The translations under genes and the position numbers were made by a program. This document shows, piece after piece, positions 7,789 to 28,448 of a stretch of 37,782 nucleotides of DNA. A model generated the notes under the pieces. The model was not told the DNA's origin and ran no database searches. It saw nothing but the letters and a program-made list of their open reading frames with translations. How positions within the stretch are numbered: the stretch's first letter is position 1; every line of letters starts with the position of its first letter. The stretch covers positions 1 through 37,782 of the IMG/VR virus record IMGVR_UViG_3300008113_004466; one strand, given 5' to 3'. Source of the DNA: a virus.

Positions 7789-8265
7789 TTCAAAACGCCA
7801 TCTAACTACATCATTATATTGTTCGTCACTCCAATTAATATAATATCCTCCGCGTTCTAAAGAGCGACTGGCTTCATTAATACTATGCAATCGTTGTACA
7901 ATAACGATGTTGTATTTTCCGTTATTAAATTTAATGCCGTGAAATGATTCCTCAATACTTACATGATCTTCTAATAGTACTAAGTCCTGAGGAAGAAATT
8001 GTTTGTTGAGTTGTTTAATATCTTCTACAAACTTAACAGGATCTACATCGTCATCGCAAACAAATAATACAGCATGATTATTATCATCCCATGCTGTTAA
8101 TTTTTCTGTTATGTCTTTGTTGTAGTCAGATGTGCGAATAAATTTAACTTGATTCTTTAATATTGCAGACTTTGCAAAAGGACAAATAGGCAAACTGTTT
8201 AACAAATCGTGAGGAACAGATAATACTTCTTCTACCCATTTAGTTAGATATTCTTCATACTCCAT
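7777..8265 (-). CDS. Conserved small protein with a CPFA motif, unknown function
   Basis: A protein of 162 residues if it starts at the ATG at 8265 (MEYEEYLTKW), which overlaps the upstream amidinotransferase stop by 11 bases; a start at 8295 would add ten residues. The N-terminal LPICPFAKSAILKNQ recalls the CPFA(K) motif of the DUF1415-type family, which I mention only as a resemblance. The middle has VLFVCDDDVD, and the C-terminus contains YNIVIVQRLHSINEASRSLE. No signal peptide or membrane segment is seen. Its place directly after an amidinotransferase suggests a role in the same pathway. Confidence 0.5.
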   Translation of the reverse strand: MEYEEYLTKWVEEVLSVPHDLLNSLPICPFAKSAILKNQVKFIRTSDYNKDITEKLTAWDDNNHAVLFVCDDDVDPVKFVEDIKQLNKQFLPQDLVLLEDHVSIEESFHGIKFNNGKYNIVIVQRLHSINEASRSLERGGYYINWSDEQYNDVVRWRFESGT

Positions 8266-9424
8266 AGTCACGTTGACCTCCACTACGTTTAACATCTAAT
8301 GTAAGACAATGCCATCCGCCGTCCCAGAAGAATCTGTTACGTAACGGACATACTATAGGAGTAACACCTTTTGACTCTAATAGTTTAAGTAACTCAGGAT
8401 TGTCGCTGTTAACTACCACGTGCTTGTCATCAATTACTAAACAATTTAAATCAAAAATAGTTTCTTCGCAGAATCCTGTCCAATTAGGTAAAAAACTTTC
8501 TACAAATTCAGTAAATTGGTCATTACCCTCTTCTCCAGGAACCCACCAGTTTCCTCTATTTTTGTCTCTTAGTTTATACCACTGTCTAACATTATCCCAA
8601 TTAGGATCATTAAAGTAGATTATTTCCCAACCTGGAAATAACTTTTCGTAACCTTTAAACCAAGGTCCGGCAATAACTACTCCTTCCTTGACTACACTAA
8701 AGATACCATCTAGATGGCCGCCTATGCACACATCTTTATAAGAGAACTGAGGATACCGCTCGGTTAAGAACTCTAAAATGTCTGCGCTCTGCCATAGGTC
8801 AACCATACAGGTGGTACCTATTCGTGTTAGATTAGGACTGCAAAATCCCATTAAACTCATTACATTAGGATCTGGATTTTTAATAAAGTAGTCTTCTGGT
8901 AAACCTCGATCTTTAGCGGCAGCAATTAAATTTAGTTCACTACGTTTAAACTCCATAGCGCCATTGTAAATGCTTAGGTCTATTTGATCTTCACCGAACC
9001 ATTCAATAAACTTCTTAACATATCCTTCAACTTCAAATGTTCTGTCTGTAATTAATAACTTATTGCCCATTACAATGCTGTCGTCTCTGACTTGTAACGG
9101 GCTTGTGGGAATCATATTCTTTTTAATTAAGTCTGGACGGTCACTAGCAAATCCCATTTTGCCGTTGACGTCTACATAGTCTAGTATACTATCTTTGTAT
9201 CCAAGTTCCTTAGGAGATGCTTGTAATACATTAACACCGTGACTCTTTAATTGACTTTTAAAATACTCAATATCTTCGTTGGTCTCATCAACTATCTTTT
9301 TTAATACATTGGCTATTCTAGGATTTTTGACACCGTCAAAGAAACTAGCATCATAGACACTACCAACAATAACTGCTTCTAACTTTTGTAACTCATCCCA
9401 ACTATTTAATTTAATTTTGTCCAT
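8255..9424 (-). CDS. Amidinotransferase (glycine/inosamine amidinotransferase-like)
   Basis: A protein of 389 residues when started at the ATG at 9424 (MDKIKLNSWD), 14 bases inside the upstream gene's end; a longer frame to 9505 is unlikely. It carries the pentein-fold catalytic set: R113-D-D115 in QVRDDSIV, GGHLDG at 235-240, and C373 in GGWHCLT, the nucleophilic cysteine that forms the amidino-enzyme. The length suits arginine:glycine or arginine:scyllo-inosamine-phosphate amidinotransferases. The reaction would move an amidino group from arginine to an amine, making a guanidino compound. The acceptor is not known. A second, diverged copy lies at 15458. Confidence 0.85.
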   Translation of the reverse strand: MDKIKLNSWDELQKLEAVIVGSVYDASFFDGVKNPRIANVLKKIVDETNEDIEYFKSQLKSHGVNVLQASPKELGYKDSILDYVDVNGKMGFASDRPDLIKKNMIPTSPLQVRDDSIVMGNKLLITDRTFEVEGYVKKFIEWFGEDQIDLSIYNGAMEFKRSELNLIAAAKDRGLPEDYFIKNPDPNVMSLMGFCSPNLTRIGTTCMVDLWQSADILEFLTERYPQFSYKDVCIGGHLDGIFSVVKEGVVIAGPWFKGYEKLFPGWEIIYFNDPNWDNVRQWYKLRDKNRGNWWVPGEEGNDQFTEFVESFLPNWTGFCEETIFDLNCLVIDDKHVVVNSDNPELLKLLESKGVTPIVCPLRNRFFWDGGWHCLTLDVKRSGGQRDYGV

Positions 9425-9743
9425 CCGGCCAATCCCTGTAATATGCGTGTTGGATATTACCCGACACAAATTGATTAAAACTACGGTGTTTGTCTTCGAG
9501 TTCACCTTCTAACGGTGCTACACGTTGGAACGCTGTTTCTAACTGTGCCATATTATTGAACTCCATCATAATATGCCACTCGGGAATATCCATACTACGA
9601 AATCCCATTTTACATCTAGTAATTCTATAACTTACCATCTTGTCTTCATCAACTAAATGATCGAGAAAAGATTTCATATTGTTGACCCATGCTAGATCGC
9701 TGATGTCACCTTGCTTGTCTGCCCAGATATGATAGATATCCAT
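9411..9743 (-). CDS. Small conserved protein, ferredoxin-like fold (DUF6614-like)
   Basis: A protein of 110 residues beginning MDIYHIWAD at the ATG at 9743, which overlaps the stop of the upstream PP-loop gene as TAATG. Features are MVSYRITRCKMGF, IPEWHIMMEF, and a helix LETAFQRVAPLEGELEDKH, ending in YYRDWPD. This pattern of strand, helix, strand with a WHIMMEF core resembles a small family of dimeric alpha/beta-barrel proteins that I recall as DUF6614. The function is unknown. It sits between a PP-loop ATPase and an amidinotransferase. Confidence 0.55.
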   Translation of the reverse strand: MDIYHIWADKQGDISDLAWVNNMKSFLDHLVDEDKMVSYRITRCKMGFRSMDIPEWHIMMEFNNMAQLETAFQRVAPLEGELEDKHRSFNQFVSGNIQHAYYRDWPDGQN

Positions 9744-10513
9744 TATTGTTTTTCTGCCCATGCACGTTCAGAACACCAAAAACATTTGCCGCACTTAGGC
9801 ACATATTGTCCCGGTGTATAACTTTCATAAGTTAGTTCATCGAACTCGCCTTCGCAACTTCTAGTCTGATTATACAAATCTAAAATATCCAATCGTTGGT
9901 ATTGTTTAAAGATCCAACTTTTATCAACAAATCTAAAAGGATGACAACTAACTTTACCCATGTGTGTTGTTATCATCTTCTTAACGTTAGTTGGCACAGG
10001 TTCAATATCACGACGACTCATCGCTCCTTCAATTTCAATATCTGGATTGTGTGTTACTGCATTAAAGTAGGCGTCTACATTTTCTTTGTGACCAATATAT
10101 TCAGCAAATGCTCTAATTTCAATAATATCTCCGCTGTTGAGTTCGCCATACTCATCAACTATTGTAGGTCCTTTATTTCCCCATTCAAAATCGGGTGGTA
10201 AAAAGTTTTCATGTCTTACAAATCGTATGTGTCTGAATTTCTCTAAAAGTACAGTATACACATCTAAACTGTTATATCGTTGCCATGGACGAGTTTTCCA
10301 ACAACGTACATGTGTGATAATATGAACAGTAATATCATAATTGTTCTTTTGAATTAAGTCGCATAATAAGTAAGCAAGTAGTGCAGAATCTGCACCGCCA
10401 CTAACACTAATAGCAATATTTTTCCAATCTTTATCGAGTGGAAAATAAACGTCGTCGATTTCATGCAGGATATTAGTGTAAGGTGTTAAGTCGTACAACT
10501 GTTTTATATTCAT
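9743..10513 (-). CDS. PP-loop ATP pyrophosphatase, QueC-like
   Basis: A protein of 256 residues. The PP-loop SGGADS at 38-43 binds ATP phosphates, as in QueC, asparagine synthetase and related amidating or thiolating enzymes. The C-terminus has C220 and C241-GK-C244-FW-C247-SER, like the four-cysteine zinc site of 7-cyano-7-deazaguanine synthase (QueC). Other QueC partners (QueD, QueE, FolE) are not seen nearby, so a QueC-derived enzyme that amidates or adenylates another carboxylate is equally possible. It is first in the minus block that includes a DUF-type protein and the amidinotransferase, with a TTTAAATA box five bases upstream. Confidence 0.7.
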   Translation of the reverse strand: MNIKQLYDLTPYTNILHEIDDVYFPLDKDWKNIAISVSGGADSALLAYLLCDLIQKNNYDITVHIITHVRCWKTRPWQRYNSLDVYTVLLEKFRHIRFVRHENFLPPDFEWGNKGPTIVDEYGELNSGDIIEIRAFAEYIGHKENVDAYFNAVTHNPDIEIEGAMSRRDIEPVPTNVKKMITTHMGKVSCHPFRFVDKSWIFKQYQRLDILDLYNQTRSCEGEFDELTYESYTPGQYVPKCGKCFWCSERAWAEKQ

Positions 10514-10518
10514 ATAGG

Positions 10519-10526
10519 TATTTAAA
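10519..10526 (-). promoter_or_regulatory. Late-promoter-like box TTTAAATA
   Basis: The minus strand reads TTTAAATA, 7 of 8 matches to the T4 late box, separated by five bases from the ATG of the PP-loop gene. If used like a T4 late promoter, transcription would begin at or next to the A of the start codon. The 12-base divergent spacer leaves no other room for a minus-strand promoter. AT-rich sequence makes chance matches common. Confidence 0.35.
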
Positions 10527-12268: not shown

Positions 12269-12293
12269 GTCATGATATTTACTTTTATTTCCC

Positions 12294-12301
12294 ACCGCGG
12301 T
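12294..12301. repeat. 8-base GC-rich palindrome in a divergent spacer
   Basis: ACCGCGGT is a perfect palindrome in an otherwise AT-rich 52-base spacer between the divergent starts at 12268 and 12321. The spacer also holds an AATAAGTA box at 12309-12316 four bases before the plus-strand ATG and an AGTAAATA box on the minus strand at 12276-12283. A regulator site is possible; the palindrome is short enough to be chance. Confidence 0.25.
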
Positions 12302-12320
12302 AAAATAAAATAAGTATATT

Positions 12321-14277: not shown

Positions 14278-14882
14278 CGTACAAACTTATTAAATGGACT
14301 CCTGAATTAGATTTGACCGAGTTTTACTCGGAGGCTAATAGGCGCGGTTACGAAAATAATAACAGTCAAAAAACAATGTTTGACTGTTTTCTTAACGAGC
14401 GTGAATGGGCAGGTTGGATGTTAGAGTACAATGGCAAGTTCATCGGAGGAGTGTGTATACATAGTTTTGACGACGTGATGGGTCCTAATAGTTATAGAAT
14501 CCTAGCAAGGACTTGCACATTTACCAGCGAAACTCACAAACCTTGGCCTCATACTAAACAAACAATTATTGTAGAGCAACAATGTTGTGCTACACAATTT
14601 TTTATACCTATAAGTATTCAATGGGCTGGAGAGGGCAAGCGATTTTTTGCTACAAGTAACGCCAATCCTATGGGTAGTCAACAACGAGTTAATAATTTGT
14701 GGTTTCCTATGCAAGCCGAGTTAGGTAGATTTTCATGGGTTAAAGAAGCACACTATCGAGGATGCGATCAAAATGTATGGGAACTAAATGTAGACGAATG
14801 GAAGAAAAGTTTAGCAATGTACGAAATATGGCCGTGCGAGTTTCCTTCTGAGGATCCAAGAACAGAATATGTCAAACTTTGA
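14274..14882 (+). CDS. Unknown protein, weakly GNAT-like
   Basis: A protein of 202 residues. An N-terminal region with GWMLEYNGKFIGGVCIHSF and YRILARTCTF resembles the first GNAT strands. A middle part with EGKRFFATSNANP and QQRVNNLWFP has no clear acetyl-CoA loop. Cysteines occur in QQCCATQF. It starts in an ATGA overlap and overlaps the following aminotransferase by 14 bases, so it belongs to the same transcription unit. The assignment as acyltransferase-like is only a suggestion. Confidence 0.4.
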   Translation: MTYKLIKWTPELDLTEFYSEANRRGYENNNSQKTMFDCFLNEREWAGWMLEYNGKFIGGVCIHSFDDVMGPNSYRILARTCTFTSETHKPWPHTKQTIIVEQQCCATQFFIPISIQWAGEGKRFFATSNANPMGSQQRVNNLWFPMQAELGRFSWVKEAHYRGCDQNVWELNVDEWKKSLAMYEIWPCEFPSEDPRTEYVKL

Positions 14883-15468
14883 TGTGGTTTCTAAATTTGA
14901 AGATGTAGTAGCAGAATTTTATTCTGCACCATATGCTGTAGCCACAGATTCATGCACACATGCTCTTGAATTATGTTTAAGATATAAAAATATAAAACAA
15001 GCAAGTTGTCCTAGTAATACATATCTTTCTGTTCCTATGACATTTGTAAAATTAGATCTTGACTGGAATTTTAGAAAAGAAACATGGCAGGATTATTACT
15101 ATATAACAGAACAAATTATCGATGCCGCAGTGCTTTGGCGTAAAGACAGTTACATTAAAGGAACATTGATGTGTATAAGTTTTCAATTTAGAAAACATCT
15201 TAGTCTTGGTAGAGGCGGTGCAATACTGTGCGATGACCCTGAAGCAGCCATGGTATTAAAAATGATGAGTTACGATGGCCGTGTTCCAAACGTTCCGTGG
15301 GCTGAACAAGATATATCCATGTTAGGCTATCATTATTATATGACTCCGGAAACAGCAGAACTAGGATTGAATAAAATTGTTAATGCAATGAAAACTCCTC
15401 CTAAAATATGGTCTAACAATGACTATCCAGATTTATCAAAAATGAAAGTATTTAAAGATGTTAAGTAA
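14869..15468 (+). CDS. Short DegT/DnrJ/EryC1-type sugar aminotransferase
   Basis: A protein of 199 residues, about half the usual 370-400. The family motifs are nevertheless clear: AVATDSCTHALEL (cofactor phosphate loop), PSNTYLSVPMTF, IIDAAVLW with D85 (pyridine-nitrogen Asp), and SFQFRKHLSLGRGGAI with K109 as the Schiff-base lysine. YHYYMTPETAELGL follows, as in full-length sugar aminotransferases. The last part is abbreviated. Such enzymes add an amine to a keto-sugar or cyclitol. The amidinotransferase that follows with an 11-base overlap could then act on that amine. Confidence 0.75.
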   Translation: MSNFDVVSKFEDVVAEFYSAPYAVATDSCTHALELCLRYKNIKQASCPSNTYLSVPMTFVKLDLDWNFRKETWQDYYYITEQIIDAAVLWRKDSYIKGTLMCISFQFRKHLSLGRGGAILCDDPEAAMVLKMMSYDGRVPNVPWAEQDISMLGYHYYMTPETAELGLNKIVNAMKTPPKIWSNNDYPDLSKMKVFKDVK

Positions 15469-16441
15469 AAACGAGTGGAGTCCTTTAAAGAGTGTTATTG
15501 TGGGAGTTGCCGACGGTGCAACTATTCCTCCTTTAGATATAAGTTTGCGTGTGGTTAATTATGCAGACAAAAAAGACGAAAAGGATATACCACAAGGTCT
15601 TTATCCACAACAGGTAATCGATGAAGCCAACGAAGATCTGGAAGTGTTTTGCAATTTTCTTAAAGGCGAAAGTGTAGAGGTACTAAGACCAAAACGTACA
15701 CCACTACCTAACTATTATAATTATTGTCCTAGAGATAGTGTGCTAGTTTATAGAGATATGATACTAGCATCGCCACAACCTTTACGTGCAAGACACAAAG
15801 AGTATTTGGCCATGCACGAGCATTTTGAACCTTTAGAACGACTAGGCGCAAGATATATCGAAGCGCCATTGAATCGCAATGACGACTTATATAATCTGAA
15901 TTGTCTAGGAGATAAGGACACACTTGCGTTGAATGAAACACAACCTTGTTTCGATGCGGCAAACATATTACGTGTCAACGATGATTTAATTTACCTTGTT
16001 AGTAACAGTGGTAATAAGAAGGGCGCAGAGTACTTACAAAGTCTAGTAGGTAATAAGCGTGTATGGACATTGGAAGGTGTCTACAGTTACATGCACATCG
16101 ACAGTACTATTACACTACTACGAGAAGGATTAATGCTGTTAAATCCTAGTAGAATAAAAAGTATAGATCAATTACCTAAGCCTTTACAAAATTGGGACGT
16201 TGTGTGGGCGCCGGACCCTGGTGAAGTTGCACACTATCCTGGTTACTGTAATAGTAGCAAGTGGGTAGCAATGAATATCTTTTCTGTTAATCCTAATCTA
16301 GTGGCAATACCAGATCATCAACACGAATTGCGAAAAGAATTAGAAAAGCACAAAATAGAATGTGCGATGCTGCCGGCAAGACAACAACGCACATTAGGTG
16401 GAGGATTCCACTGCGTTACGTTGGATTTAATCCGCGAATAA
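15458..16441 (+). CDS. Amidinotransferase-family protein, second copy
   Basis: A protein of 327 residues and shorter than the copy at 8255. The pentein catalytic set is present: R92-D93 in YCPRDSVL, FDAAN at 165-169, H213-I-D215 in YMHIDSTI, and C319 in GGGFHCVT as the nucleophile. The DAANILRV loop and the HIDSTITLLREG stretch are typical of glycine amidinotransferase-like enzymes. It lies directly downstream of a sugar aminotransferase, so amine formation and then amidination is a plausible sequence of steps. Its 3' end overlaps the convergent gene by 26 bases. Confidence 0.82.
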   Translation: MLSKNEWSPLKSVIVGVADGATIPPLDISLRVVNYADKKDEKDIPQGLYPQQVIDEANEDLEVFCNFLKGESVEVLRPKRTPLPNYYNYCPRDSVLVYRDMILASPQPLRARHKEYLAMHEHFEPLERLGARYIEAPLNRNDDLYNLNCLGDKDTLALNETQPCFDAANILRVNDDLIYLVSNSGNKKGAEYLQSLVGNKRVWTLEGVYSYMHIDSTITLLREGLMLLNPSRIKSIDQLPKPLQNWDVVWAPDPGEVAHYPGYCNSSKWVAMNIFSVNPNLVAIPDHQHELRKELEKHKIECAMLPARQQRTLGGGFHCVTLDLIRE

Positions 16442-16925
16442 TTCCAGTAATCTGTAGAGTGTAACGATTCTCAGTGCCTTCATTGTAAGCACCGTGACTG
16501 TCTGTGCCGATCCAACTGATCCAATCTCCAGCAATCCAATTATCTAAATTAACACCATTAAGTGTAAATCTGTGTCCAGGCTTTTTATCTTCTAGGAATA
16601 TAATTACACGCTGTATAGAATTAATATCAGCGCCAGTTGTTTTAATAAAGTAAGGATACTTGTCTGAATGTTCTGGTAATGCACATCCAGGTTTCATACA
16701 ATGTACAGCATACATCATATTAGACAACCAATTAAAAGAATCTTCTAATTTAAGAATGTCAAATAAAGGGTGTAGACCTTTATGTATGTCCATAGATACT
16801 TCTACTTGTGAGTAAACGTCTCCGTAATCGATAGGAGAGAATCCACGTTGTATATTTTCTTGGCTTTCATAATTAACTAATGGTAGTTGACTACTGAGCC
16901 AGTGAGGAGTTATATGGCCTCTCAT
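16416..16925 (-). CDS. Aspartyl/asparaginyl hydroxylase-like 2OG oxygenase
   Basis: A protein of 169 residues. Motifs: H86-S-D88 in LPEHSDKYPY, H144 in TDSHGAYNEG and R154 in ENRYTLQIT, matching the iron and 2-oxoglutarate ligands. The text between, RVIIFLEDKKPGHRFTLNG, is the usual jelly-roll strand pair. Its start abuts the stop of the next gene upstream, a 2OG oxygenase fused to another domain, so two oxygenases are translated in series at the end of the 19-kb minus-strand run. It is similar in layout to the protein encoded at 1666. Substrate unknown. Confidence 0.75.
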   Translation of the reverse strand: MRGHITPHWLSSQLPLVNYESQENIQRGFSPIDYGDVYSQVEVSMDIHKGLHPLFDILKLEDSFNWLSNMMYAVHCMKPGCALPEHSDKYPYFIKTTGADINSIQRVIIFLEDKKPGHRFTLNGVNLDNWIAGDWISWIGTDSHGAYNEGTENRYTLQITGIIRGLNPT

Positions 16926-18959: not shown

Positions 18960-19549
18960 TGTAGTTTTCCTATTACCATGTATCTAGTATACAAGGGTAG
19001 TTCTAATTCTCCGGCCCAAATAACATTGATGCCACATTGTTTTTTAAATTCTTCCAAACTGTTAGCGATCCTAACATGTTCGGGTATATTATAATTATTG
19101 CTTTGTAGTACTAGTAGGCTGTTATATGGCATGCCACTTAACCATAAATCGTATTGTTCCTGTGTTATATGTTCGCAACTTGTGTTAATTATAACATCAG
19201 CATCACTACGGATGGCACACATATCTGCGGTTACTGCACGAAACTTACCAACTATTTCCTCTTGCTTATTCATCATTACAGCAATAGGCTCGCATGTAGG
19301 ATCTATATCTATGCTACGAATATTAATTACTGGAACATCGCTTTGAAATAATAAACTTGCTAGTGTACCTACCCAGCCGCCATGTATATCCACTGTAACA
19401 AACTTCTTAACATGATTACGTAGATTAGTAATCAACCACTCTTTACTTTTAAGTTGACCGCTCCAGAACGCATCCATGGTCCGAATAGGATCTGGACTTT
19501 GTCGAATGGCTTGCATCCAAAAGTGTAAGTGGTCTGTATCTATTTGCAT
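18956..19549 (-). CDS. Class I SAM-dependent methyltransferase-like protein
   Basis: A protein of 197 residues. The sequence has a Rossmann-like order: FVTVDIHGGWVGTLASLLF (a motif I-type loop), then NIRSIDIDPTCEP (acidic residue that binds the SAM ribose), then DADVIINTSCEHI (motif IV). The glycine loop is unusual (HGGWVG). The N-terminal helix region FWMQAIRQSPDPIRTMDAFW is conserved-looking. It overlaps the upstream radical SAM gene by ten bases. A methyl acceptor cannot be named. Confidence 0.6.
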   Translation of the reverse strand: MQIDTDHLHFWMQAIRQSPDPIRTMDAFWSGQLKSKEWLITNLRNHVKKFVTVDIHGGWVGTLASLLFQSDVPVINIRSIDIDPTCEPIAVMMNKQEEIVGKFRAVTADMCAIRSDADVIINTSCEHITQEQYDLWLSGMPYNSLLVLQSNNYNIPEHVRIANSLEEFKKQCGINVIWAGELELPLYTRYMVIGKLQ

Positions 19550-20517
19550 TTTGGTATCTTACTGTCTGCTGAACTAACACAACTAGGTGTAATACATTTC
19601 TTAGGTTCAGTAAACAAATCAAATCCTGTTAAAATATTTCCTAATGGCTGGTCATGACAACTATAACTACGTTTGACTTCTGTACTTCTTATTATAACAC
19701 TTTGATAGCCTGCATTGCAAGTCCAATCTTTAAACTTGTTAAATCCAAAAGCATTAAACCGTTCTGCTTGATCTAGTAAATGCTCTGTACCATTTTCTTC
19801 ATATAATGCAATTTGGTATATGTCCTCACCGTTGACTCGTTGTGGAAATCCTGTTTGCATCTTGTTAATCATGTCTTCGGTATAACCTTCAACGACACCG
19901 CTGGCTGTTGGATCACTTTGCGGTTTGAGTGTTACGTTAATTCCACGCTTGTGCAATCGTTCCATTCTATCATAAAGTTCATAAAACTTTTCAGGAACCA
20001 TTACTTGATTAACTGTTACATGAACTAGTTCGTATTGTAACTGTAAACACTTGTCTCCGAACTCTTGCTCTTTGGCAAACTCATCGTGGAAACTAGCCGT
20101 TATACTGCGGCGCTGTAACATGTCTGTATTCTTACACCAAGTGTTCCACCACTTACTACCTGGACTTAGGTTAGTAGTCATGTGTATGCTTTGATAGGAA
20201 CTTTCTAACTCATCTAGGTGCTTGACTAAATCGTTTAAGTGCTTATATGCTGTGGGCTCACCGCCGCTGAACGACCAATGGAACTGGTTAAATCCATTGG
20301 CTCGTGCTTGACGCTTAATCTCGTCTACAGTAGATTTATATACTTCAAGCGGTTGGTGATCAATACGGTCACTGCGAGCATACGGCCAACAGTAAGAGCA
20401 GTTGTAATTACAAAAACGTCCCAGTATCCAACTGGTGTTGAATAAGGGACGATCTAGCATGGTCCGTTGACCAAACTTACTTATTTGTTGGAACGGGATA
20501 TCTTGAAAAGAATGCAT
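19540..20517 (-). CDS. Radical SAM protein with a SPASM-like C-terminus
   Basis: A protein of 325 residues from the ATG at 20517 (MHSFQDIP); other in-frame starts lie at 20535 and 20460, and no ribosome site decides between them. The cluster motif is C36-NYN-C40-SY-C43 and GGEP is at 85-88. The C-terminus has DWTCNAG, SYSCHDQPLGN and a last CITPSC region, the same frame as the proteins from 2157 and 6437, making three paralogues. It overlaps the upstream glycosyltransferase-like gene by 41 bases. Substrate unknown. Confidence 0.85.
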   Translation of the reverse strand: MHSFQDIPFQQISKFGQRTMLDRPLFNTSWILGRFCNYNCSYCWPYARSDRIDHQPLEVYKSTVDEIKRQARANGFNQFHWSFSGGEPTAYKHLNDLVKHLDELESSYQSIHMTTNLSPGSKWWNTWCKNTDMLQRRSITASFHDEFAKEQEFGDKCLQLQYELVHVTVNQVMVPEKFYELYDRMERLHKRGINVTLKPQSDPTASGVVEGYTEDMINKMQTGFPQRVNGEDIYQIALYEENGTEHLLDQAERFNAFGFNKFKDWTCNAGYQSVIIRSTEVKRSYSCHDQPLGNILTGFDLFTEPKKCITPSCVSSADSKIPKCK

Positions 20518-21172
20518 GTAACCACTCGAAGTCATTTATTTTACTTAAGGCTGCTAAGTCTCCTGCCTTTTGCATGCCGTACATCTTACCATCTTCTGCG
20601 CCCAAGTAAGCCCAGTCATTGTGGGGCTTGTCTTGAAAATATGTACACCATGTCATCAAACGATGCTCTGTTTCTGCATCTACTTGTCCGTCAATTACCT
20701 TTGCGGCAAGTTTTACACATTCTCTAAATGCCGACTTCCAAGAATTGAAAGGGTCTGTATTAAATGCTGTAATATTAGATACTTGATCCATGGCTTTAAA
20801 TTTTGTACTAATACTTGTTGTCATGTCAGGCTTAGTAACGTCCATGTCTAATGTTAGTTTACGTGGAAGTAGTTTAACACCACCGTAGCCGTATTCTAAA
20901 CCGTTGATTGGATTTTGACTTCGCCATACGTGAACAACATCTAAATCGTACTCACTAACTTCGTGGTCAAAATTAAAATCATCTAATACTTCTGCATCAC
21001 CGTCTACTACCCAAAACATTTTTGTAAAACATTTTTTTGCCGCGGCAATGTGTGCTTGATGTATACCTTTAACATCCTTAACACGCTTGGCTAAAGGAAA
21101 ACGTTTCTTAAGACGTTCCCAATTGACTTCTGCATTTGGTTCGCCGTAACTAATAAAAACAATATCGTACAT
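20477..21172 (-). CDS. Glycosyltransferase-like protein ('EPNAE' type)
   Basis: A protein of 231 residues from the ATG at 21172, which overlaps the stop of the SDR gene as TAATG. The N-terminus FISYGEPNAEVNWERL, then KRVKDVKGIHQAH and MFWVVDGDAEVLDDF form a GT-A-like nucleotide-sugar pocket with DGD as the likely metal-binding DxD. GYGGVKLLPRK follows, as expected for an acceptor loop. A longer paralogue with the same order of motifs is encoded at 31750. Glycosyl transfer is inferred from the fold pattern; donor and acceptor are unknown. Confidence 0.65.
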   Translation of the reverse strand: MYDIVFISYGEPNAEVNWERLKKRFPLAKRVKDVKGIHQAHIAAAKKCFTKMFWVVDGDAEVLDDFNFDHEVSEYDLDVVHVWRSQNPINGLEYGYGGVKLLPRKLTLDMDVTKPDMTTSISTKFKAMDQVSNITAFNTDPFNSWKSAFRECVKLAAKVIDGQVDAETEHRLMTWCTYFQDKPHNDWAYLGAEDGKMYGMQKAGDLAALSKINDFEWLHAFFSRYPVPTNK

Positions 21173-21846
21173 TAGTGCCACTCCACTTCTGGAAACATTG
21201 TGATTGTTTTAATTTCTGTTGTATGCGGAACTTCTGCAATATGAAATACTGCATCAGCAACTATATCTGGATCAAGTGCATCTTCTGCTTTTCCGCAGGG
21301 GTAAGGATTCTGGTCATTCCACAATGTAGTATTGATGCCGCCTGGATGAATACTAGAAACTTTGATTTTACGACTACGAAGTTCTTGTCCAATAATACCA
21401 GCAAAACTTCTCAAAGCGGCTTTACTTGCACAGTATAGACTTTGATTTTGTATTTCTCTAATACCAGCAACACTATTAATAAAGACTATTCTGCTACCCG
21501 CAGTCATGGACTTTAGTGCTTCCATGGTTACATACATTGTACCTTTGATATTAGTGTCTATTATTGTACATATATCAATATACTCTGCTGTATCAAAAGA
21601 CCCAGCGTGAAATGCCGCACTGTTATTCACTAGCAAGTCAATGTTTGTTTTGACTTTACGCATAGTTTCAAACGCACCGTGGACTTGACTTATATTTGCA
21701 ATGTCTGCTGTGTAATGCGTATAATTTTCTAATTTATCGGGCGCAGTTCTGCCCAGGCCAATAACATGCCAACCTGCATTAATAAACTTCTTGGCCGTGG
21801 CTAATCCTAATCCTCTGCTTGTTCCTGTAATAACCACTGTCTTCAT
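21172..21846 (-). CDS. Short-chain dehydrogenase/reductase (SDR)
   Basis: A protein of 224 residues with all classical SDR marks: TGTSRGLG at 7-14 (NAD(P) loop), NNSAAF near 74-79, S125 in INSVAG and Y138-CAS-K142 as catalytic residues, and HPGGINT after them. The R after TGTS suggests NADP(H). It lies immediately downstream of the sugar-phosphate cyclase gene with an ATGA overlap, so reduction of the cyclase product's ketone is a reasonable guess. Expected in the cytoplasm. Confidence 0.9.
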   Translation of the reverse strand: MKTVVITGTSRGLGLATAKKFINAGWHVIGLGRTAPDKLENYTHYTADIANISQVHGAFETMRKVKTNIDLLVNNSAAFHAGSFDTAEYIDICTIIDTNIKGTMYVTMEALKSMTAGSRIVFINSVAGIREIQNQSLYCASKAALRSFAGIIGQELRSRKIKVSSIHPGGINTTLWNDQNPYPCGKAEDALDPDIVADAVFHIAEVPHTTEIKTITMFPEVEWH

Positions 21847-22907
21847 TGTAAACTCTTTAACCTCTGTGTTGCTTGTTGGATCTCGCTATAAGTAACATCG
21901 TTTATGATTTCACAACGTCCTATACTAATAGGGATAGGTAAATGTTGATTACCATTTCTATGATTCATTACATCGTTTAAACCACTCCATAATAAATCAA
22001 CGTTGTAAAAATCTTCGTGCTCTGTAGCAAGTCCACAATTTTTAATTACTGTAAAAATACGTTCTAAATCTTCGTTGGATAACAATCCTCTAAGATTGCT
22101 AATACAACTGCTCAACAAACAGTCTAAAATAACTGCTTCACCGTGTAATAGGTTAGGCACATTTTTCATTTCAACTACTGGACTAAAACTATGTCCAAAG
22201 TCTACTGGCCGTTTTAAATTTCGTTCCCACAAATTGTCATTTAATTCCTGTGTCATACCAGTGATTGCACGATCAATAATTTGATCTGCTAAGGCATGAT
22301 TTTGAAACTTTTGTGTTAACAACTGCTGTGGTGCTAGTTCCATCATCTCAAAAAGACGATGGTCTAGTACAATTGCCAACTTTAATATCTCTGCCATACC
22401 ATTGGAAATTTCCCTACGGTCCTGTGTTTTTATAAAACTCGTATCAATAAGAGTTTGTACAGGAGGATAAAAACTACCAATACGATTTCTACGACCAAAG
22501 TGATTAATACTAGTCTTAGCACCTACACTTGCATCAACTATGGCTAACAATGTTGTAGGAATTCTAACATAAGGAATTCCTCTACGATAGATACTGCAAC
22601 AAAATCCTACTAGATCTAATAGGACGCCACCACCTATTGCAATGATAGGTTCACTTCTACGAAGCACATTTTTTTCTTCAAAAAACGCAAGAACACGTTC
22701 TGCATTTTTCCAATGTTTTTCGGCTTCGGTAGATTCAATAGTTAATAATTCTACACCTTCAGGAATTCTTTCCTTGTATAGATTATACACTATTTGATCG
22801 ACAACTGCAATACGTCGTTGACCTGGAATTACCCAAAAGTCTAGAGCATCGGAAACTTTGTTAATTTCGAATTGTACAGGAAGATTAGTTTTTACACGCC
22901 AAGTCAT
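21843..22907 (-). CDS. Sugar-phosphate cyclase (sedoheptulose-7-phosphate cyclase/AroB-like)
   Basis: A protein of 354 residues of the dehydroquinate-synthase superfamily. It has GGGVLLD at 92-98, IPTTLLAIVDASVGAKT at 116-132 (NAD and phosphate contacts, K131), MAEILKLA at 171-178 (E173), DFGHSFSP at 236-243 (H239) and LHGEAVILD from 254 (H255); E173, H239 and H255 are the expected zinc ligands. The SFSPVVE stretch between the zinc histidines resembles 2-epi-5-epi-valiolone synthase-type enzymes more than true AroB, and no shikimate genes are near. It would cyclise a heptulose 7-phosphate to a C7 cyclitol. Subtype is inferred. Confidence 0.8.
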   Translation of the reverse strand: MTWRVKTNLPVQFEINKVSDALDFWVIPGQRRIAVVDQIVYNLYKERIPEGVELLTIESTEAEKHWKNAERVLAFFEEKNVLRRSEPIIAIGGGVLLDLVGFCCSIYRRGIPYVRIPTTLLAIVDASVGAKTSINHFGRRNRIGSFYPPVQTLIDTSFIKTQDRREISNGMAEILKLAIVLDHRLFEMMELAPQQLLTQKFQNHALADQIIDRAITGMTQELNDNLWERNLKRPVDFGHSFSPVVEMKNVPNLLHGEAVILDCLLSSCISNLRGLLSNEDLERIFTVIKNCGLATEHEDFYNVDLLWSGLNDVMNHRNGNQHLPIPISIGRCEIINDVTYSEIQQATQRLKSLQ

Positions 22908-23866
22908 AGTAATCTATTTACTAGACTACAGGCATGGGCATAAAAAAACTTGGCCGCTTCTATGTTATCTGCATGGCATTTAAAGGGCAACATACGGAAA
23001 AATTGTGTTGCTTCAAATAGTTTTACCAAATTGTATTGCTTGGGATATCTGTATTTTAATTCATCATTAAACAATTCATTAAAGTAAACAAGATTTTCTG
23101 GAACTTCATCTATGGAGAAATCCGTTATATTGCCGTTGACTTTGAGAACTCCGTCATTGAGCAACCCGTACAAACTATTACTACATTGGAGCACTTGACT
23201 GTAATCCATAAATTGGCTATCAACTATTCCCTCTTCGTACAGATCTATAAACACAATTTTATCAGTGTCTGGATCGTACAGAATATTTTCTAAAGTAGGA
23301 TTTCCGTGTACATAGCATTCGGAAGAAATCGCTTCGTCAAATAATTTAGAAAATTGTTCAATTTTATTTTTAATTCCGCTAAAAGTTTCGCCTTGATGCA
23401 CGTAAACATCTAAATTATAAAATTGTTCAAACTCAGGAAACTGTCTAGCATCATTTAGTTTTTGCAAAACTTCTTCTTGAAAGTAAAGTTTAAGACTACT
23501 AACGTTTGGTGTATACTTATGGCTGTGCAATCTATCAAAAGTAAACCACAAAGATTTATGCATCTTTTCTGTTTGATACCTTGTTAATGCATTTTCTTTA
23601 AACAATGTTTTAATATCTTTTGCATCAATATATTCGATATCAAAATATGCTCCATCGTCTACAAGTCCTGCATCATATACTTGCGGAACAACGCCTGGAA
23701 CAAGGGCGTTAAATCTTTGTAATTTTTTTAATTGACTGTACCAGCGTACATATCCATATTCTCTATCAGCACTAGTAGAGATAAGTTTTCTTACAAATTT
23801 CTTATCTCCATCTATGTGTAATGAAGTTGAATTAAGACTGCCGCCTTTTAACTTGATTATTTGCAT
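22904..23866 (-). CDS. APH-like sugar kinase family protein with catalytic Asp replaced by Asn
   Basis: A protein of 320 residues. The fold is that of aminoglycoside/choline-type phosphotransferases: K27 in FVRKLIS as possible ATP-binding Lys, EYIDAKDI hinge near 78-85, YVHGNPTLENIL at 185-196 as the catalytic loop, and IVFIDL with D208 as the metal-binding Asp. The catalytic base, normally Asp in HGD, is Asn189. Relatives with HGDxxxENIL occur next to nucleotidyltransferases in capsule-type clusters. It overlaps the cyclase start (ATGA). It may be an inactive or altered kinase for the cyclitol or sugar. Confidence 0.72.
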   Translation of the reverse strand: MQIIKLKGGSLNSTSLHIDGDKKFVRKLISTSADREYGYVRWYSQLKKLQRFNALVPGVVPQVYDAGLVDDGAYFDIEYIDAKDIKTLFKENALTRYQTEKMHKSLWFTFDRLHSHKYTPNVSSLKLYFQEEVLQKLNDARQFPEFEQFYNLDVYVHQGETFSGIKNKIEQFSKLFDEAISSECYVHGNPTLENILYDPDTDKIVFIDLYEEGIVDSQFMDYSQVLQCSNSLYGLLNDGVLKVNGNITDFSIDEVPENLVYFNELFNDELKYRYPKQYNLVKLFEATQFFRMLPFKCHADNIEAAKFFYAHACSLVNRLL

Positions 23867-23867
23867 T

Positions 23868-25106
23868 TTAAAATTCTAATACCCACTCTGGTAATGATCC
23901 GTTATCAGTCTTATATCCCCACTTGTCGATGGCGATTCTAAATTCTTCTCCAGGTTTTTTATCTATGGCTTGGCGCATGGCTAGTGCTCCTGCCAGTGTT
24001 CCGTTAGGATGTCCGTGTACTGCGCCTCCACAGTTGGCAAGAAAGTCAGTGCCAAACTTTTCAGTTGTAGCAGTTACTATGCCAGGATGCATACCACAAC
24101 TTAATGCTGGCAGTACATTTCTCTTGTGTAGAGTTTCCATTGTGTATTTGAGATCAGTTTCGTCATCGCTGAGATAGCCTCCCCACATGCCTGCATGGAT
24201 AGTATCAACACCGCATAAGCCTGCAAGGTCACACAATACTGCCCAATCAATACCAAACGGATTACGTTTGTCTGTAAGGATCTTATCACCACTCTTCTGG
24301 TAATGAATAAACAAAGGTAAGTCTAGTTTACGAATAGAATTGTAAACACCTAGTCCACTCCAAAAGTTAATGTGAATACCGTTACCGCCATTGTTGGCTA
24401 CAAACTTAGCACGTTCTAGAATAGTATGATGATCTCCATTGATACAGAAACAATAGATAACATTACGTCCACAGTTATTAACAATGTTGGAAATTAATTC
24501 AACACGATCTTCAAGACTGCAAAAACTTGGATTACTTAAAATTTCATCTTCTTTAATAAAATCTACACCGCCGTCTAATAGTTCTTTAACCATGTCGGCT
24601 AGTGTACTAGGACTAATACCAGTTTTAGGTTTTACAATAGCACCAGACAACGGCTTGTCATAACGATTTACAAACTTTCTAATACCAGTAATACCTTGAC
24701 GTGGACCTAGAAAGTTCTTTTCAACATCAGCAGGAAATGCTACATGTTTTAGTCTACAGACTTTAAACATATTAATGTCTAGTTGGCCACCCATAAGTTG
24801 ACACATCAAATGACTAATGCCATCTCCTTGCCAATCTGTGTTTACTTTAGGAAATCCAATTTTTACTGTGCCTGCATATTTGCCTGTGAGTTCCTCTTCG
24901 CTGTGATAAATTACACACGATGACAATTCGAACAAGTCATCATTTTCCCAACGATTGCGAACGTTGGGATTTCCTACACTTTGACCTATGGCGAGATTCC
25001 ACGCGGCATCCTTTAAGTCGCCAAGAGTTTCGTATGTTTCAATATAATAAGTTACTACAACGCATCGATTTTTTTCTAACTCGGTTAAATCCCGAAAAAA
25101 TTTCAT
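23868..25106 (-). CDS. RuBisCO-like protein (form IV type)
   Basis: A protein of 412 residues aligned by eye to the RuBisCO large chain. Present: K159-P-K161 (sites of K175/K177 in the spinach enzyme), K185-E-D187-E188 (carbamate Lys and metal ligands), H268, H304, S336 and G360-G361. The loop-6 lysine (K334), needed for carboxylation, is replaced by Tyr311. AIGQSVG near 39-45 is also typical of form IV. It is therefore expected to enolise or isomerise a sugar-phosphate-like substrate rather than fix carbon dioxide. An AAAGGA ribosome site lies upstream. It sits between a kinase and a cupin/nucleotidyltransferase pair. Confidence 0.88.
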   Translation of the reverse strand: MKFFRDLTELEKNRCVVVTYYIETYETLGDLKDAAWNLAIGQSVGNPNVRNRWENDDLFELSSCVIYHSEEELTGKYAGTVKIGFPKVNTDWQGDGISHLMCQLMGGQLDINMFKVCRLKHVAFPADVEKNFLGPRQGITGIRKFVNRYDKPLSGAIVKPKTGISPSTLADMVKELLDGGVDFIKEDEILSNPSFCSLEDRVELISNIVNNCGRNVIYCFCINGDHHTILERAKFVANNGGNGIHINFWSGLGVYNSIRKLDLPLFIHYQKSGDKILTDKRNPFGIDWAVLCDLAGLCGVDTIHAGMWGGYLSDDETDLKYTMETLHKRNVLPALSCGMHPGIVTATTEKFGTDFLANCGGAVHGHPNGTLAGALAMRQAIDKKPGEEFRIAIDKWGYKTDNGSLPEWVLEF

Positions 25107-25123
25107 TCTCGATTCCTTTACTG

Positions 25124-25456
25124 CTATTTGTTAACGATATCAATCTCAAACTTGTCGTTTGGATCACTAATATTTCTTACTACTACTAACTTGACATCAG
25201 TCAAATATTCACATTGACTGATTTCATAAGGACCAAGGACAAAAATTTCACCCGGTCCAAATACTTGATCATTTATTTTAATACTGCCTTCTACTACTAG
25301 ATTAACCTCAGTACTTTTTTTATGAAAATGATCTTTGTGGAATTCTCCTGCGGTGTGCTGATGGAACCCTACTTCGAAATTTTCTTTTAGAAGACTAGGT
25401 TCAAAGTTTCCTATAAACCACCCTTTAACAAAATCCTTAATGTGTGCTTGTTTCAT
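25124..25456 (-). CDS. Small cupin protein
   Basis: A protein of 110 residues from the ATG at 25456; the in-frame codon at 25465 is TTG. It has the cupin metal motif HKDHFHKKSTEVNLVVEG, with three His and a Glu, and GPGEIFVLGPYE as the second conserved block. Single-domain cupins beside nucleotidyltransferases often act as sugar isomerases or epimerases, but binding roles are also common. One base separates its start from the stop of the nucleotidyltransferase gene. Confidence 0.75.
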   Translation of the reverse strand: MKQAHIKDFVKGWFIGNFEPSLLKENFEVGFHQHTAGEFHKDHFHKKSTEVNLVVEGSIKINDQVFGPGEIFVLGPYEISQCEYLTDVKLVVVRNISDPNDKFEIDIVNK

Positions 25457-25457
25457 A

Positions 25458-26180
25458 TTAATCAAAAAATGCTGTGTTACTGTTAAAGTGCATAAGGTCG
25501 TCAGGTGTGCCTACTGGCCAAAATTCAGAATTATCAATGGCATATTTTTTAACTTTTAGACCACGTTGAATGGAATAGTTATAAACTGGTGCAACATAAT
25601 ATTCACCATTTTCTTTATGGTCATCTGCTATCATCTGTTCTGCATCTTGAAAGAAGTCTCGAGTATGTGCCCAATGATAGAAACCTATTGTAGCATCATT
25701 ACTAATTACCCGTTTTTCCCGTACTTCTACCACGAATCCGGCTTGCTCCTTAACGTAACTACATTTTGGACTTGTTTCTTTGTAAGTAACAATAAAATTT
25801 ACATCGGGCTCTCGTTGCATTTGATCTATTAAGTTAAAAGGATTCCATGACAAAAACTGATCACAATTAACACTTAACATAGGAGCATTTACATCTTTAA
25901 TATGATTTTTTGCCAATAATAAACTTTCGGCTGCACCGCGTGTTCTTCCTTTTGAAATTATAATCTCATCTCCAAGGCCAAGAAGTAATTTTTCTAAATG
26001 TTTGTTTTCTAATAATTGATCTTCTCTAACAACAAAATGTATTTTTCCTGGAATCTTAATAGATTCAACAGCGTGGTAAATCATAGGGGCGCCGTTATAT
26101 ATCATTAAAAATTTAGGTAGAGAAAGCCCTACGTTTTTAAAACGACTACCGTCACCGCACATTCCCATTATAATATTCAT
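25458..26180 (-). CDS. Sugar-phosphate nucleotidyltransferase
   Basis: A protein of 240 residues. The N-terminal signature is CGDGSRFKNVGLSLPKFL, a variant of GxGxRx....PK that binds NTP. SVNCDQFL supplies the metal-binding Asp, GFYHW follows, and VGTPDDL near the end is typical of NDP-sugar synthetases. It would activate a sugar- or cyclitol-phosphate as an NDP derivative for the glycosyltransferases nearby. It starts in an ATGA overlap with the upstream SGNH gene and is followed by the cupin and RuBisCO-like genes. The nucleotide and sugar are unknown. Confidence 0.85.
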   Translation of the reverse strand: MNIIMGMCGDGSRFKNVGLSLPKFLMIYNGAPMIYHAVESIKIPGKIHFVVREDQLLENKHLEKLLLGLGDEIIISKGRTRGAAESLLLAKNHIKDVNAPMLSVNCDQFLSWNPFNLIDQMQREPDVNFIVTYKETSPKCSYVKEQAGFVVEVREKRVISNDATIGFYHWAHTRDFFQDAEQMIADDHKENGEYYVAPVYNYSIQRGLKVKKYAIDNSEFWPVGTPDDLMHFNSNTAFFD

Positions 26181-26863
26181 TTAATTTCTTCCGATATTGT
26201 CTCTGCCCAAATTTTATGTGTTTCTATCTTTGGGTGTTTATACTGGTATACAGGCAAATCTTTTTTAAACACATCTTCTAACCAAGAAGATTTTAGATAC
26301 ATATTTTCTATTTCTAGATTCCATTTCTTCTTAATAACTTCTTGCCAGTGATAAGGTGGTTTTCCTACAGCAATAAAATCATAATATCTAATGCCTAAAC
26401 CTTTGCATAACAATCTTAAATTAACCATATACATTGCTGTAATATGTTCTCCATAACTATCGGTATAGTTTTCATAAAATGCTTCGTGGTACTTTTTTAA
26501 AGATTTTTCGTCCACTGGTAAATTATGCAATCTAAGACAGTGCTGTATAGTAACACTATAAATTCCTTGACCACTGCTAACCTCTGATCGTTCAGGACTA
26601 GTCCAGCCAATACAAATGAATAAGTCTTTAGGATCTTTTCCGCTTCCTAGCCAGTTATTAATAAAATCGTTGGTCCTTCTAAATATTCTTGCGTTACTAG
26701 CGCCACCTTGTGCATCATTAACACAAACTGGAATATTTAAATTTTGACTTAGGAACCAGGGCCAAGTATTGTAATACCGTGTCGAAGCAGAATTCATATC
26801 ACTGCGATCAGGGATTTCATCACCATGTGTCCAACTGTCTCCGTTAGCATATAGATATTTCAT
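26177..26863 (-). CDS. SGNH/GDSL hydrolase-like protein, copy 1
   Basis: A protein of 228 residues. Block I is NGDSWTHGDE (nucleophile Ser), block II GGASNARIFRR, then CIGWTSPERSE, and near the C-terminus KHPKIETHKIWAE with the His of block V. No signal peptide is seen, so it acts in the infected cell or on the particle. SGNH enzymes in sugar clusters add or remove acyl groups. It is the first of three tandem SGNH genes (26177-28448), joined by ATGA or short overlaps. Confidence 0.78.
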   Translation of the reverse strand: MKYLYANGDSWTHGDEIPDRSDMNSASTRYYNTWPWFLSQNLNIPVCVNDAQGGASNARIFRRTNDFINNWLGSGKDPKDLFICIGWTSPERSEVSSGQGIYSVTIQHCLRLHNLPVDEKSLKKYHEAFYENYTDSYGEHITAMYMVNLRLLCKGLGIRYYDFIAVGKPPYHWQEVIKKKWNLEIENMYLKSSWLEDVFKKDLPVYQYKHPKIETHKIWAETISEEIK

Positions 26864-27636
26864 AATGAGTTATTTTTAATATGTTTAATTATTTTTTGAG
26901 ATACTTCTATATGTCCACGTTCATTGCAATGTCCACTCCTGCCGCTGTCAGGATACTTTCGAGAATATACTCCCCAATCGTTATGCAAATAATTTTTCTT
27001 ATCAATAAATCTATCCTGATGAGTATTAGGAGACATTATTACGTGTGAAAATCCTGCTTCTTTCAACATCATATGCATCATTAAGATGAGACCAGTATCA
27101 TTAGTTTGTTTAATTGAATCATCATATAACTCTTCGTAAAATGTTTTAATGGCTGCTAATTTTGTGTCAACATCTTTAAATAGGTATGCAAGATTAGGAC
27201 CTTCGCCTGAACTAAAGTGAAGGAAATTACTAACAGTTTCACTTATTAATTTAGGTGTCTTATTAGGTTTGAAAGGTATTTCTCTGCGATGCCATGCATC
27301 TCTTGCACAATAAGGTTCGTGCAAATGATATTCAACATCTGCTAATGTGTAATTGTTATAAGATTTAGTGACATGATCTGATGGAAGTGTAAATCTGCTA
27401 TGATTAGTCGTTGATACCAATACTAACGGCTTATCTTTATTCTTGTAATCTTCTATTACTTGCTGGACTTGCAAATAAATGATGTAGTTACAGCACCCGC
27501 TTCTCGCATAAATCTTATATGGTACTTCGAATGACTCTGCAACCAAACCTCCAAAACTTCTTTCAAAGCAGTACTTAGATTCTATACCTAAGCCGCAGGC
27601 AAAACTATCGCCACAGATTGCAACTTCTTTTACCAT
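26860..27636 (-). CDS. SGNH/GDSL hydrolase-like protein, copy 2
   Basis: A protein of 258 residues. CGDSFACGLG is block I, ARSGCCNYII is an altered block II, and the C-terminus has GHCNERGHIEVSQKI with the catalytic His region. It is the most diverged of the three SGNH proteins here and lacks the WTSPER phrase of the other two, having STTNHSRF instead. It overlaps the next gene by four bases and the upstream one by seven. Esterase or acyltransferase activity is inferred only from the fold. Confidence 0.72.
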   Translation of the reverse strand: MVKEVAICGDSFACGLGIESKYCFERSFGGLVAESFEVPYKIYARSGCCNYIIYLQVQQVIEDYKNKDKPLVLVSTTNHSRFTLPSDHVTKSYNNYTLADVEYHLHEPYCARDAWHRREIPFKPNKTPKLISETVSNFLHFSSGEGPNLAYLFKDVDTKLAAIKTFYEELYDDSIKQTNDTGLILMMHMMLKEAGFSHVIMSPNTHQDRFIDKKNYLHNDWGVYSRKYPDSGRSGHCNERGHIEVSQKIIKHIKNNSL

Positions 27637-28448
27637 AATTTATTTTCCTTTCCGTACTCATGCATGTGATCAGCCCACCATGTGTGTCCTAGTTCACTAG
27701 GATGCATATTTAAGATACTGTCTTTCTGATTTGGACTTGTATCTTTGTTGACAATGTAATTGTGGAAACTATGAATCTTATCGTCTTTGTGCATAAAACG
27801 TACAGGGTCGATCATATTCCATACCATCTCATCAGGTTGACCTTGATAATGTCTGTTGTACGGGTCATCAGTCCATTGACGAATATGCATGTCATTACGC
27901 TGATAAAATGCTTGAAAAAATAAATGCTTAATGCCGTAGTTGTTAAACAATGTTTGCAGATAAAATACTTGCTGAAGATATCGATGCACATACTCTTCTG
28001 GATTCCACATATAAGTGGCGTAGAGATCAGCAAACTCGTTTAAGGGCTCCTGGGGATAACGGTGTTTCCACATTGGCCATAGTGTGTACCAAAAATGTTC
28101 AAATTTGTTATTAATATTTCTATAATAAAAATCTTTACGCTCTGGACTAGTAAATCCTACTACGACAAATAGTTCACTGGTGTCTTTTTTAGGAGCAAGA
28201 TATTCTTGTGTAAGCCAACCTACAAGATTTCTAACTATTCTGTCATTACTGGCCGCAGGGTAACTTAAATTTACAACATCATTTATACCTAGATGGTTAC
28301 CTAACTTTGTAGGCCAAATTTTAGGCAAGCGATAACTATCGTTGGGTTCGTCCCAATCTTTAACACTTTCTGGCAATTTAGGATCACGGATTTCACTACC
28401 GTAGGTCCAACTATCTCCACTAACAACTAATCTTTTAAATTTTGGCAT
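27630..28448 (-). CDS. SGNH/GDSL hydrolase-like protein, copy 3
   Basis: A protein of 272 residues. Block I is SGDSWTYGSE, block II PAASNDRIVRN, then VVGFTSPERKD and, at the end, NMHPSELGHTWWADHM with the catalytic His and a preceding acidic residue. It resembles copy 1 closely in the phrases GDSWT and TSPER, so these two are probably duplicates. It overlaps the upstream glycosyltransferase-like gene by 14 bases. No export signal. Confidence 0.78.
   Translation of the reverse strand: MPKFKRLVVSGDSWTYGSEIRDPKLPESVKDWDEPNDSYRLPKIWPTKLGNHLGINDVVNLSYPAASNDRIVRNLVGWLTQEYLAPKKDTSELFVVVGFTSPERKDFYYRNINNKFEHFWYTLWPMWKHRYPQEPLNEFADLYATYMWNPEEYVHRYLQQVFYLQTLFNNYGIKHLFFQAFYQRNDMHIRQWTDDPYNRHYQGQPDEMVWNMIDPVRFMHKDDKIHSFHNYIVNKDTSPNQKDSILNMHPSELGHTWWADHMHEYGKENKLW
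28435..28440 (-). other. Stop overlap with the SGNH gene start region
   Basis: The stop of the 'SGQLR' copy 1 gene lies inside the start of SGNH copy 3, which begins at 28448, a 14-base shared stretch. This is one of the longer overlaps in the run and points to translational coupling rather than separate promoters. Confidence 0.35.

Follow-up and report, generated by a model that had tools for sequence, protein, structure and literature searches.

The window analysed here (the whole 37,782-nucleotide stretch, positions 1 to 37,782 of the uncultured-virus record IMGVR_UViG_3300008113_004466 of IMG/VR), reported to derive from a T4-like phage of freshwater, holds a cluster of sugar- and cyclitol-type enzymes beside the tail-fibre genes. 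This cluster is probably an island for glycan synthesis in a T4-like myovirus, a composite of separately moving modules (rough probability, 0.6). At least three separate modules are present: module A (g20–g22, centred on a StrB-like amidinotransferase), module B (g31–g33 and g39, centred on a RuBisCO-like protein, RLP) and module C (g23 and g24), and these are accompanied by a kinase-cyclase-short-chain dehydrogenase/reductase (SDR) cassette (g28–g30). Judged from sequence, the likeliest products are unusual sugars in nucleotide-activated form or a C7-cyclitol, destined for a glycan on a surface or on the virion. An earlier note, made from the letters of this DNA alone, had listed the enzyme classes of an aminocyclitol or unusual-sugar pathway, and open reading frames (ORFs) and profile matches place all of them where it had located them (Table 1). 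Comparisons were made against about 250 viral loci; contigs are non-independent samples and counts are rough, and the scans, seeded with short peptides that differed between viral and bacterial searches, give lower bounds.

The cluster is not a product of chance, because related phages retain its gene order and reading frames, genes g28–g31 are under strong purifying selection among relatives of the window phage (dN/dS of approximately 0.03–0.08), and the minus-strand genes are tightly packed. From g22 to g45, minus-strand neighbours overlap or lie no more than 17 nt apart, and g46 and g47 follow beyond gaps of 34–63 nt. Given this spacing, the transcription unit of the tail-fibre genes seems to run on into the island.

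The assignment of g29 as a sedoheptulose 7-phosphate (S7P) cyclase of the C7-cyclitol type, that is, a 2-epi-5-epi-valiolone synthase (EEVS)-type enzyme, is supported by structure-database scores, phylogeny and residues, in agreement with the earlier note. Among PDB entries the best score was obtained with the EEVS ValA (4p53, 266 bits), compared with 194 bits for desmethyl-4-deoxygadusol synthase (DDGS) and at most 147 bits for dehydroquinate synthase (DHQS). In a maximum-likelihood tree computed without the bacterial relatives L300–L305, g29 fell within the S7P cyclases, separated from DHQS by a 100/100 split, the tree leaving its placement inside the S7P group unresolved. At four type-separating sites of the alignment, g29 carries the ValA residues (L222/D236/P243/H316), whereas DDGS has E/A/P/T and DHQS V/N/H/V; the discriminating ValA positions, which we take to be L267, D281 and H360, were mapped by alignment. 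The metal ligands E173/H239/H255 are as in ValA, with the Glu absent from one of 11 distinct sequences. An AroB 3-dehydroquinate synthase was rejected (TIGR01357, 212 bits against a cut-off of 305), and score, tree and residues together rule out a host AroB carried by chance.

The kinase-cyclase-SDR arrangement was found only in 17 viral contigs, all belonging to the window clade; scans for the cyclase with a single sequence and with an alignment yielded the same set, and relatives of the g30 kinase were found in window-clade contigs only. Most of the larger clade contigs retain the three genes and the flanking order. The cassette has module B on one side and g27 on the other, and its neighbouring genes overlap by 4–10 nt or lie 1 nt apart, so that functional coupling with its neighbours is plausible within this clade. 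EEVS (ValA/AcbC) cassettes such as those of Streptomyces clavuligerus and Agrobacterium vitis plasmid loci likewise combine an EEVS-type S7P cyclase with a kinase and one or more dehydrogenases. However, the phage locus has an RLP at the place of their sugar-phosphate isomerase/epimerase, and its cyclase is phage-borne, lies beside tail fibres and shares no more than 41% identity with the bacterial enzymes, this maximum being reached with annotated plasmid S7P cyclases. No close bacterial donor was found among the genomes searched, 398 from Pseudomonadota and 296 from Bacteroidota (best identity, 34%), or among plasmids, which alone covered Actinomycetota and Cyanobacteriota (41%), and 50,697 public phage records held no g29 relative above the DHQS level.

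An alignment scan with the RLP returned 211 viral relatives, of which 80 were retrieved. The composition of module B was counted in the 57 cyclase-free RLP loci with 3 kb of sequence on both sides: all 57 carry the nucleotidyltransferase, 56 the cupin and 56 the order nucleotidyltransferase-cupin-RLP, and 47 have a g39-like gene nearby. At least one T4-type capsid, terminase, baseplate or polymerase gene was present in 13 of 22 sampled RLP records, and a gene of the DHQ-synthase family was absent from 16 of them, which led us to reject a C7-cyclitol-specific enzyme as the general role of the RLP. Module B is rare in bacteria (2/297 SAR11-order genomes and 1/395 Bacteroidota), and the RLP family with its fixed partners was not found among the 50,697 public phage records. 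The sole Bacteroidota case is probably viral; its contig (L023, from a metagenome-assembled genome labelled Sphingobacteriales), which carries RLP, cupin and nucleotidyltransferase genes, looked phage-like by eye, with PhoH-like and peptidase genes. In SAR11 the module lies in surface-polysaccharide islands, as annotated by eye, amid Wzx flippase-, GDP-mannose dehydratase-, GDP-fucose synthase- and glycosyltransferase-like genes.

In the RLP family, the equivalents of the metal-site residues K175, K177, K201, D203, E204 and S379 are kept. The carboxylase residues are lost: among 71 distinct sequences, H294 is replaced by Q and the loop-6 K334 by Y in 70, and R295 by K in 61, a pattern that does not fit a RuBisCO carboxylase. 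Form IV RLPs (MtnW, the Rhodospirillum rubrum MTRu-1P isomerase and OiaX) likewise keep the Mg-site residues and have lost those of the carboxylase. In contrast to these, the g31 family falls far below the cut-offs of the characterised NCBIfam models (MtnW, 157 against 409 and 118 against 514 bits; OiaX, 155 against 700), so that both names were rejected, and it occurs mostly on viral contigs with nucleotidyltransferase, cupin and miniature glycerophosphodiester phosphodiesterase (GDPD) partners. The cupin announced by the earlier note is less directly recognised: g32 itself had no Pfam match, and the name draws on the weak matches of one family member, although H46 and E53 are present in 64/64 and H48 in 63/64 sequences of its family. 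R13 and K23 are retained in 71/72 relatives of the nucleotidyltransferase g33. By its predicted structure (AlphaFold pLDDT, 96.7) and residues, g39 is a miniature GDPD reduced to 144 aa; the top structural matches were GDPDs (Z of 10.7 to 1o1z, VIA-align), Foldseek alone gave no match below E 0.001, and the HR/ExD/H residues characteristic of the fold are found in 54/55 family members. We tentatively propose, at slightly less than even odds, that this mainly viral (T4-like) RLP family and its dedicated partners, namely the nucleotidyltransferase, the cupin and the miniature GDPD, form a new pathway, complete in itself, by which a sugar is made in nucleotide-activated form; in the window clade this set has been joined to an EEVS-type cyclase, with the RLP perhaps acting as an epimerase or isomerase.

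Within module A, sequence comparison supports g21 as a StrB-like amidinotransferase closest to StrB1, and its catalytic H213, D215 and C319 are present in 72/72 distinct sequences. The pyridoxal phosphate (PLP) residues K109 and D85 of g20 are conserved in 68/68 sequences, and the protein lacks the full two-domain fold of about 360 aa. Amidinotransferases of the StrB-like kind are abundant in viral contigs, with at least 538 relatives. When the main window clade is set aside, 67 StrB loci remain for comparison; the DegT gene accompanies 64 of them and g22 accompanies 61, nearly all in the absence of RLP or cyclase. Streptidine biosynthesis (StsC and StrB1) likewise pairs a DegT-family gene with an adjoining amidinotransferase carrying the catalytic Cys/His/Asp, whereas in the phage module the DegT protein is a miniature and a 2-oxoglutarate (2OG) hydroxylase-like protein is a constant third partner. 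The cultured Synechococcus cyanophage S-SCSM2R carries module A genes amid annotated glycosyltransferases, and Campylobacter phage CP220 a more distant amidinotransferase amid radical SAM genes; both are cultured T4-like phages and resemble the window in that genes for an amidinotransferase, radical SAM proteins and sugar-nucleotide transferase-like proteins occur together, but neither matches the cyclase or RLP queries. Viral amidinotransferases have been annotated as glycine amidinotransferases (PMC8226683); the StrB-like match and the DegT partner cast doubt on this annotation. An 85-kb relative of the window carries extra StrB-like paralogues (L112:14753-15808 and L113:16915-17901) with 38% and 70% identity to g21, respectively.

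Module C comprises the fusion protein g23, whose 2OG family differs from the g15/g17/g22 type, and the epimerase g24. Both 'sporadic carbohydrate cluster' models (TIGR04323 and TIGR04324), which come without RLP or cyclase, match g23 as a fusion and below their curated cut-offs (TIGR04324, 76 against 150 bits, short of family membership). Viral relatives of g23 number 83, and a g24-like epimerase is co-located in 45 of 78 loci.

The steps of the proposed composite island would be as follows. In the window clade the kinase-cyclase-SDR cassette lies immediately behind the nucleotidyltransferase-cupin-RLP module. The EEVS-type cyclase would convert S7P from the host pentose-phosphate pathway into 2-epi-5-epi-valiolone, as expected from its family and residues; the aminoglycoside phosphotransferase (APH)-like kinase and the SDR would then phosphorylate and reduce or epimerise this product, and a nucleotidyltransferase could activate the modified cyclitol. 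Conjecturally, the RLP would stand in for the isomerase/epimerase of the bacterial EEVS loci. Module B might independently provide its own nucleoside diphosphate (NDP)-activated sugar or polyol phosphate, with the RLP catalysing a Mg-dependent enolisation, and module A might form a guanidino product by aminating and amidinating a carbonyl compound, in the manner of the StsC/StrB1-type steps of streptidine formation. Finally, glycosyltransferase-like, 2OG and radical SAM proteins encoded nearby may add these units to a host-surface or virion glycan or modify them there. From the glycosyltransferases, the tail fibres and the SAR11 polysaccharide islands we infer a nucleotide-activated product that ends on such a glycan.

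Several observations weigh against this proposal. The kinase is APH-like, whereas the bacterial cassettes seen carry a ROK kinase. One clade cyclase (L012, 4286-5311) lacks 13 residues through an in-frame gap, and the metal-ligand Glu is lost with them. The DegT-type aminotransferase of the earlier note stands as a family match with its PLP residues, and g20 is nonetheless a 199-aa miniature without the C-terminal domain, matching part of a 360-position profile. The nucleotidyltransferase goes with module B, and its role on a cyclitol is unproven. Furthermore, modules A and B function elsewhere without the cyclase, and the cyclitol link may therefore be merely physical.

The locus counts bear on the explanation favoured by the earlier note, a single pathway in which cyclase, RLP, cupin, kinase, nucleotidyltransferase, DegT protein and amidinotransferase yield one NDP-activated guanidino-cyclitol. 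In the window clade all the parts are present and conserved jointly, g33–g28 are closely packed, and the parts list resembles those of the streptidine and C7-cyclitol pathways; to this extent, the co-inheritance that the note had made a test of its idea was observed. It ends, however, at the border of one narrow clade: the DegT/StrB pair and the RLP/cupin/nucleotidyltransferase set are widespread in viral contigs without the cyclase, as the 57/57, 56/57 and 64/67 counts given above attest, and the single-pathway reading therefore fails outside the window clade. With DegT and StrB also on the opposite strand in the window, we regard one pathway as improbable for this phage and, judged on locus counts, as unlikely to be a general rule.

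We consider it similarly doubtful that the product of the cyclitol cassette is small and soluble, such as a glycosidase inhibitor or a UV or stress protectant, with no attachment to a glycan. Most characterised EEVS products are indeed small secondary metabolites, e.g. acarbose, validamycin and gadusol (PMC4426668). Against this, the cassette lies amid glycosyltransferase-like and tail-fibre genes, and neither the gadusol partner MT-Ox nor a transporter was recognised. Least probable is an ordinary set of host-derived O-antigen genes for seroconversion or receptor masking without unusual chemistry: modification of the O-antigen is a known phage strategy and module B does occur in SAR11 polysaccharide islands, but an EEVS-type cyclase and an RLP are not standard O-antigen enzymes, and the few bacterial occurrences, including the phage-like Bacteroidota contig, contrast with 211 viral relatives.

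The T4-like affiliation relies on clade contigs, as the window itself holds fibre-end genes only. On these contigs there are T4-type genes for baseplate proteins, DNA polymerase and thymidylate synthase: L107 (G005) has the baseplate wedge and hub, and DNA polymerase is encoded on L112 (G004) and on G003. An 89-kb relative has the same layout, with the island immediately after the fibre genes. The window clade and a 518-kb record that bears an RLP but no cyclase (L016 and G016) match one and the same baseplate wedge family (approximately 800–870 bits), a result pointing to jumbo T4-like relatives. In L005–L009, L013 and L014, RLP and cupin alleles have been exchanged independently at the g31 and g32 positions; identity to the window is 47–51% or about 95% for the RLP and 62–68% or about 90% for the cupin, which suggests homologous replacement of equivalent genes.

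Some features of the flanking regions complete the inventory. The second amidinotransferase of the earlier note, g12, is recognisable as such by its C-terminal part only and calls for more caution than the StrB1-like g21; of the note's three SGNH proteins, two rest on a profile and g35 on inspection by eye. Genes g11–g14 (7777-10513: DUF6875-like protein, divergent amidinotransferase, DUF6614 protein and TilS/QueC-like PP-loop ATPase) look like a further module, and the relatives L015 and L224 also have g12–g15 together. One radical SAM gene of the twitch type (5206-6440, plus strand) is broken into overlapping ORFs, g7b and g8, in different frames, either by a frameshift or by an assembly error; its relatives in two other contigs are single ORFs of 461 aa. 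The fold of g37 is putatively GT-A-like, on a low-confidence model (pLDDT, 61.5; GT-A matches at 4e-5). Homologues of g47 occur in PA5oct-like, Atu_ph07 and Campylobacter phages.

Table 1. Features of the window discussed in the text
Gene	Feature	Position	Strand	Evidence
g29	S7P cyclase, EEVS type	21843-22907	-	DHQ_synthase 3e-36
g28	SDR oxidoreductase	21172-21846	-	adh_short 2e-37; 4-nt overlap with cyclase
g30	APH/fructosamine-kinase-like kinase	22904-23866	-	APH 4e-7; 4-nt overlap with cyclase
g31	RLP, core of module B	23868-25106	-	RuBisCO_large 1e-43
g32	Cupin	25124-25465	-	Adjoins RLP; family member L053 weak Cupin_7/Cupin_2, below cut-off
g33	Sugar-phosphate nucleotidyltransferase	25458-26180	-	NTP_transferase 3e-6
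g39	Miniature GDPD-fold phosphodiesterase (predicted)	29907-30341	-	Module B member in other phages
g20	Mini-DegT aminotransferase-like protein	14869-15468	+	DegT 2e-16
g21	StrB-like amidinotransferase	15458-16441	+	StrB1 1bwd 210 bits, human AGAT 127
g22	2OG Asp/Asn-hydroxylase-like	16416-16925	-	Weak PF05118 match, below cut-off
g23	Fusion of a 'sporadic carbohydrate cluster' 2OG oxygenase and a LIC12192-type domain	16925-18046	-	TIGR04324 3e-21; TIGR04323 2e-13
g24	NAD-dependent epimerase/dehydratase, LegB/RmlB-like	18036-18959	-	Epimerase 3e-37; LegB 105 bits, below cut-off
g25	Conserved protein	18956-19549	-	No Pfam/NCBIfam match; with g26/g27 in other viral contigs
g26	Radical SAM protein	19540-20535	-	Radical_SAM 8e-13
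g27	Conserved protein, possible glycosyltransferase	20477-21181	-	DGD motif; no informative profile match
g12	Second, divergent amidinotransferase	8255-9505	-	C-terminal match HsvA/SxtG/AGAT 3e-9; HLD and WHC motifs
g34-g36	SGNH-like hydrolases (GDSL/DUF6071)	26177-28448	-	DUF6071 profile g34, g36; g35 sequence inspection only
g37-g38	Putative GT-A glycosyltransferases	28435-29974	-	g37 model; g38 through common RFD motif
g40	Twitch-domain radical SAM protein	30338-31750	-	NF033640 342 bits, above cut-off
g47	Tail-fibre-like protein	36309-37718	-	phrog_19602 tail fiber 2e-13
g4, g5, g9, g16, g26, g40; split g7b/g8	Radical SAM genes			
g15, g17, g22	2OG proteins, Asp/Asn-hydroxylase type			g22 match below cut-off

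No earlier report of an RLP or an EEVS in phages was found in the open-access literature; on that basis two findings are new, the presence of an EEVS-type enzyme in a phage and an RLP family that is mainly viral and keeps a fixed set of partners. A 2007 ocean survey described new groups of RuBisCO homologues of unknown role (PMC1821046). At least one large survey of auxiliary metabolic genes removed candidates on contigs with polysaccharide-island genes (PMC11360552), and clusters such as the present one may therefore be overlooked. If the proposed composite island is correct, C7-cyclitol chemistry, known from antibiotics and sunscreens, would extend to phages, and a group of RLPs would receive its first context-based function; because the partner sets are fixed, the substrates are open to direct testing.

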